50,041 nt of DNA, taken from contig WELB01000025.1 of assembly GCA_009602725.1 (NCBI GenBank), positions 20,122 to 70,162 on the forward strand, in the 5' to 3' direction. Below the pieces are notes generated by a model, which was given only the letters and a program-made list of their open reading frames with translations, searched no databases and had not been told where the DNA came from. Positions 36,686-40,115 of this stretch are shown in pieces. Both the position numbers and the translations under genes were made by a program. Within the stretch, counting starts at the first letter, position 1. Each line of letters begins with the position of its first letter. The stretch comes from Spirogloea muscicola (Eukaryota > Streptophyta > Zygnematophyceae > Spirogloeales > Spirogloeaceae).

Positions 36686-39600
36686 ATGGGCACGGGTGAG
36701 CGCGCCCGCCGCCGCCGGGCGCGCGAGCTGCGCCCCGATCTCTCGACGACGCTCACCGCGCCTCTGCGCGGCGTTCGCTCGGCCCTCTGCCGCAGCTGCA
36801 GGCGACGGGGCCGTCGGCGAGCCGCGGCCCGGCCACGGGTACGACTACGACCTGGTGGTCATCGGCGGCGGCTCCGGCGGGCTCGCCTGCTCCAAGGAGG
36901 CCGCCAGGCTCGGCAGCAAGGTCCTCGCCGCCGCTGCCGCCGCCGCCGCAGCATCTCCCTGCGGCCGCCTCCCTCCGCCTGAGCTGCTCCTAGCTCAGCC
37001 TGCTGGCCCTGCCTGCGTCGTTGCGCGCGCGAGCAGGTCGCGTGCCTGGACTTCGTGTCTCCCACGCCCCTCGGCACGCAGTGGGGCCTCGGAGGTGGGG
37101 CCTCGGCTTCACAAGGCAGCGGCTCTCAGCTGCCTTGCTCTCGCACACCGTGCCGCCAGATGATGCCGGCCATGGCCAGCAGCGTTACGGAAAGCATGCA
37201 TCGGCGCATGCTGTGCTGCCTGCGCAGGCACGTGCGTGAACGTGGGGTGCATTCCCAAGAAGCTCTTCCACCAGGCCTCGCTACTCGGCGAGACCTTCAG
37301 CGATGCGCGAGAGATCGGGTGGAAGCTCTCCTGTGAGGGCCATGACTGGTGACGTCGAGCTCCCCCGCGTCACGCGCCCCAGCCTGCACTCGCTCGCTGC
37401 CATCTTGCACGAGCACGTGCTGTCGTGTACCCACCTCTGTGGAAGGTGGAAGCTGTGTCTAGGGTGCGACTTGTGGAGAGATTCCTGGCGTGGCAAGCAA
37501 TGACTCCTCGGAACTGTGGCGTCCTCCTCAGGTCCAAGATGGTTCAGGCCGTGCAGGACTACATTGGCTCGCTGAACTGGGGCTACCGCGTCGCGCTGCG
37601 CGACAACAGCGTCAGCTACATCAACGCTCGGGGGCGCTTTGTCGGCCCGCACGCGGTCGAGTGCACCGATCGGCGCGGCAAGGTCTGGGGCTGATGGCCC
37701 GCTGCTGGTGCTGACCACATTAGATTAGACCATGAATCAACGTCGGCAGCACAGTGTACAGCAAGCATCATGGTTCACAGTGTCCTGGTCCTTGCCTGCG
37801 GCTCAGGTGCACACGATTACAAGTGAGTACTTCGTCATCGCTGTGGGGGGGCGGCCGCGGTACTTGGGCGTTCCTGGCGACAAGGAGCTGTGCCTGACCA
37901 GGTCAGCCTGCCGCTGAACGCCCTTGTAGTCTGTCGAGGCAGCTGCTCTGCGGAGCACAGCTTGCCTCATGCCAACAGTTACCTGGCTGGTTGTTGGCCG
38001 CAGTGATGATATCTTCTCCTGGCCGACTCCTCCTGGTAAGATTCTCATTGTCGGCGCCGGTTACATTGCCATGGAGACGGCGGGCTTCCTGACCAGCCTT
38101 GGATATGATGTGACTGTCATGGCGCGCTCCATCTTCCTACGCGATTTCGACCAGGTTTGACGTGCCATGGTAGCTTGCTTTATCAAAGAGTTGCAACGTG
38201 TAGAGATTAGGGAATGCGTGCAGATCATTTGCACCTGATTGCACGTCTAGGAGAAGCTACGCAGTGTGTCCAGGAGCTATCCATTCTGCTCCGGGACCAG
38301 CACGTGTGACACAAGGCCTGTGCCTGTGTATGCTCACGTCTATTTTGCAGGAGATTGCGGAGCACATTGTGTCATACATGCAGCGGCGCGGGACCAAGAC
38401 CATACGGTCATCAGTGCCCGTGAGATTTGAGCGGGCTGAGGAAGACAAGGTCAGCTTGTGACTGGCGAGATTGCTACTTGTTGAGCTGGGCGAGGTGCAT
38501 GCGTGAAGTGCTGCTTACATTGTTAAATAGCACGTGGCCTGAGCTTGCTTCTGTGAACCCTGCAAGCAGATCGAGGTAACCTACAAGAAGTTAGAGACTG
38601 GAGAGGAGCTGACAGAATTTTTTGACACGGTCATCCTTGCGGTCAGAAGGGAGGCAGAGGTCAAAGCGCTGGTGAGTCACGTGACTCGTTTCTGAGCTTT
38701 GCTGTGCTTCAGCACTGTGCACGAGTCTCTATGGGCGCCGATTGACCCTTGATGTGTACATCTACTCTGCCTTCCCGCCTCAGGGCCTCGCCAACGCAGG
38801 TGTCCTAGTCAGTGGGGAGAGTGGGAAGATTGTCACGAACAGTCATGAGCAGGTACGGATATTTGCAGGTTGCTCTGTGGCCAGGTCCTGTGCTGTCTAT
38901 TGCCACCGTCATCTGATTTCATAAAACTGCAGCTTTCAGAGTGCAGCAAGTGAATCAGGGCTGTTGGCTACCGGACTGACCACAGAAAGCTGAGGGCGAC
39001 AATGCAGACAAATGTTTCCCACATATATGCAATTGGCGACGTCGTGGAACACCGGCAAGAGCTGACTCCCGTGGCAATAAAGGCTGGCGTGCTTCTTGCC
39101 AAGCGCCTGTTTGGCGACTCGAAGATTGCCATGGACTACAATACTGTAAAGAGCACACCCTTTTGAAAATGAAGTACTCGAAACCTAGATGTGTGCCAGA
39201 TATACAAGGTAGTGTAGTCGTATATAGATGTGCCTGATATACAAGGTAGTGTAGTTGAAAGTCTGACGAGCATGAGAAAGAAAGATTGCAGATTCCCACA
39301 ACGGTGTTCACGCCTTTGGAGTATGGTTGCGTTGGGTTATCAGAGGAGGTAGCAGCTGATACATACGGTGCTGAAAACATTGAGGTGAGGTCCCCCCAAT
39401 GAATGATGAGAGGCAATTCTGAATTCTCCAAGAAAGACTCTCATTGCAAATGCTGCGAAGTTTGTTCGCTGAGGAAGGGCGTGTTGCTTATTTGCATTCA
39501 GGTGTATCACTCGTACTTCAAGCCATTAGAGTGGCAGGTGAACCACGAGGCTAGAGATGGCGTGATGCACCGGGAGGACAATGTCTGCTATTCCAAGGTT

Positions 39601-40115
39601 GGGCTCAAATAGACGAATGTGCTGTATCTTTGGGCTAATACAAAAGATAGCTTTGGGCTATCTTTTGGCATCCTTGCCAGGACCTGGTAGTGTGTCAAAG
39701 GCGCCACATACAATGTTAATTTCCTGTATGCTTGTTGCAGCTTATCACAAATTTGCTTGACAACGAACGTGTGCTGGGCCTCCACGTGGTCAGCCCGAAT
39801 GCGGGGGAGGTGACGCAGGTACAGCGTCTATACTATTGATGTTGGTGGGACGTTATATTCAGATTATTGTCTTGCTTTACTCAGCTAAGCCAACAGGATT
39901 TGTTGCTTGATTTGTCCTATGTCACTCTTGCAGCTCATTTGCAAGTTGTTATCCACGGGGTGCAGGGCTTTGCTGTGGCGCTCAAGTGCAAGGCCACCAA
40001 GGCAGATTTTGACGCAACTGTGGGCATCCATCCGACAATTGCTGAGGAGTTCACGGTCATGAACACCACTAAGCGGTCGGGCAAGAGCGCCCTCAAGACT
40101 GGCTGCTGAGGTTAA
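36686..40115 (+). CDS. TXNRD: Thioredoxin reductase, high-Mr selenocysteine type
   Basis: Fifteen exons close in phase: 36686-36695, 36802-36920, 37037-37094, 37228-37348, 37532-37682, 37807-37901, 38004-38154, 38351-38449, 38570-38671, 38784-38852, 39008-39145, 39292-39384, 39502-39597, 39741-39818 and 39966-40115. They give about 509 residues. Motifs in order: FAD-binding [35 protein letters not shown], the redox disulfide [40 protein letters not shown], the NADPH-site [50 protein letters not shown] and the His-Glu pair [10 protein letters not shown]. The gene ends GGC TGC TGA GGT TAA, that is Gly-Cys-Sec-Gly if TGA (40107-40109) is recoded, exactly the tail of animal and Chlamydomonas enzymes. 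It uses NADPH to reduce thioredoxin via the Cys-Sec pair. The ATG at 36686 is plausible, but the gap may hide a longer start. Confidence 0.95.
39184..39258 (+). repeat. Tandem duplication in a TXNRD intron
   Basis: TAGATGTG(TG)CCAGATATACAAGGTAGTGTAGT occurs twice in succession, with a period of about 38 bases, inside the intron between the exons ending 39145 and starting 39292. Confidence 0.8.

Follow-up and report, generated by a model that had tools for sequence, protein, structure and literature searches.

Animal thioredoxin reductases (TrxRs) carry a Cys-Sec pair on a flexible tail, which relays electrons from the FAD/redox center to thioredoxin. Chlamydomonas also has a selenoprotein thioredoxin reductase. 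We take the alga studied here, Spirogloea muscicola, to be the later name of the 'Spirotaenia sp.' in the 2019 survey cited below.

Passages of PMC2375036 name a Sec thioredoxin reductase for Ostreococcus, describe long apical mini-stems in algal SECIS elements and report, in 2007, Sec machinery and selenoproteins for Mesostigma. According to passages of Liang et al. 2019 (PMC6627142), complete Sec machinery and selenoproteins occur across streptophyte algae including 'Spirotaenia sp.'; subaerial streptophyte algae have 1-3 selenoproteins, and in 'Spirotaenia sp.' the selenoprotein copy number was raised through a recent genome triplication. A genome triplication of S. muscicola is mentioned in part of PMC7994812, and streptophyte-alga selenoproteins and Sec machinery are also in print in PMC7539508. 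The methods passage of PMC6627142 gives 'Spirotaenia sp.' and Chlorokybus atmophyticus one and the same strain number, CCAC 0220; in the relevant part of PMC11096116, the S. muscicola strain is CCAC 0214 and CCAC 0220 is Chlorokybus.

Results

A thioredoxin reductase gene with an in-frame TGA

The window, i.e., the whole stretch of 50,041 bases that we analyzed (contig C25:20122-70162), belongs to a 153 Mb assembly of 471 contigs. On its plus strand, a thioredoxin reductase (TR) gene spans 36686..40115 with 15 exons and 14 introns. With borders placed by eye from homology, the exons give a single frame that runs from ATG 36686 to TAA 40115, and all introns start with GT and end with AG (14/14). 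The joined length is 510 codons including TGA and the final TAA, i.e., 509 residues with Sec. The TGA at 40107-40109 is the sole stop ahead of the TAA at 40113-40115, and GGC TGC TGA GGT TAA (40101-40115) closes the last exon. A preliminary description of this DNA had placed a gene ending Gly-Cys-TGA-Gly-TAA at 36686..40115, which agrees exactly with our coordinates and last-exon sequence. The features are as follows.

36686..40115, plus strand: gene for the predicted high-Mr (animal-type) TR (homology, TIGR01438, PDB alignment)
36686-36695, 36802-36920, 37037-37094, 37228-37348, 37532-37682, plus strand: TR exons 1-5, borders by eye
37807-37901, 38004-38154, 38351-38449, 38570-38671, 38784-38852, plus strand: TR exons 6-10, borders by eye
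39008-39145, 39292-39384, 39502-39597, 39741-39818, 39966-40115, plus strand: TR exons 11-15, borders by eye
37228..37348, plus strand: exon that encodes the redox-active CVNVGC motif of the N-terminal part (from its translation and the alignment to PDB 1h6v)
39966..40115, plus strand: last exon with HPT motif and predicted C-terminal tail Gly-Cys-Sec-Gly (sequence, copies)
40107..40109, plus strand: in-frame TGA, putative Sec codon (sequence, 3/3 copies)
40113..40115, plus strand: predicted true stop TAA (sequence, copies)
40219..40282, plus strand: candidate SECIS element comprising AUGA, a 7-bp helix, an apical loop that holds AA and a mini-stem, and CGA (RF00031, strict scan, folds)

We regard ATG 36686 as a provisional start, since translation may begin further 5': a run of N occupies 36462-36669 upstream of this ATG, and the 16 bases in between hold no in-frame stop. 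Elsewhere in the window, a 305-aa open reading frame on the minus strand (44578-45495) contains several tetratricopeptide repeats (PF13424, PF07719).

For the profile search we wrote Cys in place of Sec. The product matched TIGR01438 over its full length (model positions 1-485/485) with 671 bits, the cut-off being 475.85, and the highest-scoring glutathione reductase model, with 429 bits, fell short of its own cut-off (480). The top PDB match was 1h6v, a thioredoxin reductase (647.1 bits), with an alignment that reached the last residue. Two PDB TrxR chains shown aligned to the product end in GCCG and GCXG. The product combines the CVNVGC site with a KRSG...GC-Sec-G end, Sec being presumed at the UGA. 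Judged by its sequence, it is a high-Mr thioredoxin reductase, with predicted NADPH-dependent reduction of thioredoxin.

Pyr_redox_dim gave 12 matches in the genome, three of which were the TR gene and its copies. Two further matches on contig C3 form one locus, by eye a plant-type glutathione reductase.

The tail is kept in three diverged copies

Besides the window copy, TR copies were found on contigs C31 and C207, three in total. In the comparison, which left out exon 1 and in which 19 bases of C31 are N, exons 2-15 were open to Gly-Cys-TGA-Gly-TAA in all three. The pattern GC-TGA-GGN-TAA was kept in 3/3 copies, with a synonymous GGA replacing GGT after the TGA in C207, and the 13 introns after exon 2 retained GT and AG throughout (3/3). 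Pairwise identities were 95–96% for exons 2-15, 86–87% for introns and 87–88% for the 3' flank. Synonymous/non-synonymous codon base differences in exons 2-15 amounted to 59/19, 44/18 and 55/8 for the three copy pairs. Since all three copies keep Cys-TGA-Gly-TAA and the PDB chains end in GCCG and GCXG, the tail appears to be more than chance.

A candidate SECIS element follows the coding sequence

At 40219-40282, the SECIS family RF00031 matched with 22.1 bits and E 0.57 in a search of 4227 families over 3,421 bases at a permissive threshold; for one family in this stretch, E would be about 1e-4 if it scales with family number. The same place scored 20.1 bits in C31 and 23.7 bits in C207, all three scores being below the gathering score of 35. 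At gathering scores, no Rfam family matched anywhere in the window.

We also scanned with a strict SECIS pattern, i.e., AUGA, 7-bp helix, AA in the loop and NGA. In the 50,041-base window it gave a single plus-strand match, at 40228-40272, and a single minus-strand match near 34128. Among dinucleotide shuffles of 40116-41300, the pattern matched in 4/5000. Two of the three TR copies matched with the AA required and all three without it, the apical AA being AG in C31. The base changes in the C31 mini-stem leave it paired. The 46-base core formed the same hairpin in 3/3 copies at about −19 kcal/mol. In a context of 88–89 bases, the folds had no extra stability compared with shuffles (z 0.18, −0.04 and 0.17), and the hairpin was part of the minimum-energy fold in the window copy only (1/3); fold stability in context is therefore not counted in favor of the element.

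Three-way identity was 91% over 40219-40282, compared with 83% before (105 columns) and 75% after (1025 columns). Among sliding 60-column windows (n = 1136), the seven best, at 93%, start at 40223-40259. The conserved 3' block extends beyond the SECIS element, since the best windows from 40256 onward overlap the hairpin end only. A 60-column window at 40703, away from the SECIS element, reached 92%.

Further downstream of the TR gene, at 40804-41740, we noted direct repeats, degenerate in sequence, that share the motif CTTCAGACCTTGTCCA..TTTTGGGCTGG; a 30-nt unit occurs six times, and two 58-nt repeats are 97% alike.

Selenocysteine machinery in the assembly

Genes for SecS, SPS and eEFSec are known here as exon pieces and not as assembled full genes. 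SecS (SepSecS) exons occurred at three loci (C36, C32, C3); the three tested all matched TIGR03531 best, and one tested against the PDB matched O-phosphoseryl-tRNA(Sec) selenium transferase chains. SPS (selD-type) exons were also found at three loci (C3, C232, C56). None of the eight selD stretches reached the whole-protein cut-off and the search control gave matches in 14/14 genomes, we hence re-examined the selD exons individually. All three tested matched TIGR00476 best, and one tested against the PDB matched selenide, water dikinase chains. Stops within the matched stretches (5/11 for SecS, 2/8 for selD) were put down to introns.

With the human protein as query, eEFSec-like exons appeared at three loci (C233, C80, C65). 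These contigs held 10 of the 19 matches, 41–80% identical to human and nine of the ten at ≥65%; in the one exon tested against the PDB, eEFSec chains matched best. The remaining nine matches, on nine other contigs at 25–31% identity, were set aside as other GTPases. The eEFSec profile PF21208 had no match in the assembly, and its control was likewise without a match.

The RF01852 search, with 53 of 7899 candidates scored, found no tRNA-Sec in the assembly, and two sequence patterns gave 0 tRNA-Sec matches. A looser pattern matched 14 times, compared with 65 times in the reversed control, and ARAGORN and Rfam at gathering scores called no tRNA in these 14 loci. The sole RF01852 match, at C392:35680 with 41.4 bits, was rejected because it proved to be tRNA-Ser(UGA) of the plastid and not tRNA-Sec; with this score, the plastid gene (L009 1501-1585) is a trap for automatic tRNA-Sec calls. 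Beside it, at L009 1606-1668, we saw by eye a short inverted repeat, which miRNA models match on both strands below gathering scores.

For PSTK, TIGR03575 was without a match in the assembly, a family search that short exons can escape. PF08433 matched four times, on contigs C256 and C168. The C168 locus was rejected as PSTK and read by eye as KTI12; the only PDB match of a 115-aa piece of it was weak (6qp0, E 0.011), a chain that is presumably Kti12. The tRNA-Sec and PSTK misses are weak, since few RF01852 candidates were scored and exon-split genes can escape. Of six parts of the Sec machinery, three (SecS, SPS and eEFSec) are present at three loci each, and tRNA-Sec and PSTK were not found in these searches.

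These results bear on whether the UGA might be a plain stop, with an enzyme that ends in Gly-Cys and GGT TAA as a relic. The missing tRNA-Sec and PSTK would suit a plain stop, but the Gly codon and TAA persist in 3/3 copies despite 4–5% exon and 13–14% intron divergence, the SECIS match is likewise kept in each copy, and SecS, SPS and eEFSec are all retained, three loci each. We consider a plain stop very improbable. An equally slight chance is given to a genome that truly lacks canonical tRNA-Sec and PSTK yet has SecS, SPS, eEFSec and a UGA-Sec gene; if true, the cell would rely on a strongly divergent tRNA, or on some other pathway, to make Sec-tRNA. The selenoprotein reading of the preliminary description is backed by the family match to the tail, the SECIS match in 3/3 copies, below gathering score, and the presence of SecS, SPS and eEFSec.

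Plastid genes support a streptophyte-alga host

Plastid contig C392 carries chlI, chlB, an ndhK-type gene, ndhJ, tilS, odpB and matK. ARAGORN called no tRNA-Lys in 10 kb around matK, where an intron-split one could escape. The best PDB chains for psaA of the assembly were 8htu, 9lut and 6l35, of which we take 8htu and 6l35 to be moss photosystem I. Passages of PMC4877394 describe matK as freestanding in two zygnematophyceans, Mesotaenium and Zygnema, and report that ndhK was lost in Klebsormidiophyceae. That the assembly also contains plastid ndhJ, ndhK and matK supports the streptophyte-alga host that the preliminary description had supposed. TR, SecS, SPS and eEFSec are each present at three loci in the assembly, which, taken with the plastid evidence, would fit S. 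muscicola and its genome triplication.

The preliminary description had also considered that the contig might be an animal or chlorophyte contaminant. The top PDB relatives of the TR product, 1h6v and others, are presumably mammalian-type, i.e., animal TrxR chains, the database rows giving molecule names only, and they could be taken to favor such an origin. The contig neighbors are uninformative here: of 51 open reading frames of at least 170 aa in the window, 10 were scanned and one had a Pfam match (TPR). Contamination is nevertheless unlikely, because the gene has 14 introns and lies on a 1.08 Mb contig, and diverged copies are located on two other contigs of 0.95 Mb and 0.25 Mb. Moreover, the assembly contains the plastid contig with ndhJ, ndhK, chlB, chlI, odpB, tilS and matK, which we assume to share its organism with the nuclear contigs. 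We regard a contaminant as hardly credible, even less so than a plain stop.

Discussion

We are highly confident, from the combined sequence evidence, that 36686..40115 is a nuclear streptophyte-alga gene for a Sec-containing high-Mr thioredoxin reductase. We infer the location of the SECIS element in the transcript, Sec insertion and enzyme activity. In the proposed mechanism, UGA would be read as Sec because the SECIS hairpin located 3' of the reading frame brings in the elongation machinery for Sec; the ribosome would decode UGA 40107-40109 as selenocysteine and terminate two codons on at UAA. By analogy with the animal enzyme, the Cys-Sec pair of the tail would accept electrons from the FAD/CVNVGC center and hand them to thioredoxin.

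The novelty implied in the preliminary description did not hold, as streptophyte-alga selenoproteins are in print (PMC2375036, PMC6627142, PMC7539508). Given these earlier reports, this kind of Sec protein in streptophyte algae is already known, the general conclusion is published, and the 2019 list (PMC6627142) probably includes the TR gene itself. This gene is unnamed in the titles and abstract openings of the literature searched. The locus provides a clean genomic example of an alga near land plants that retains a Sec TR in three intact copies, and it helps to place the loss of selenoproteins within the lineage leading to land plants. Automatic gene prediction that halts at TGA would lose the catalytic tail of TR.

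The complete Sec machinery and the triplication given for 'Spirotaenia sp.' in PMC6627142 may be compared with the SecS, SPS and eEFSec genes and the three loci per gene described here; TR is unnamed for that species in the passages of its main text. The Sec TRs of Ostreococcus and Chlamydomonas likewise belong to the green lineage, but to chlorophytes and not to streptophytes. The mini-stem of the candidate SECIS element may be compared with the long apical mini-stem described for algal SECIS elements in passages of PMC2375036. With animal TXNRD1 (1h6v and others), the algal product shares the family over its full length, the CVNVGC site and the predicted KRSG...GC-Sec-G tail; in contrast to 1h6v, it has eight extra residues inserted within its C-terminal half, and its host is a green alga.
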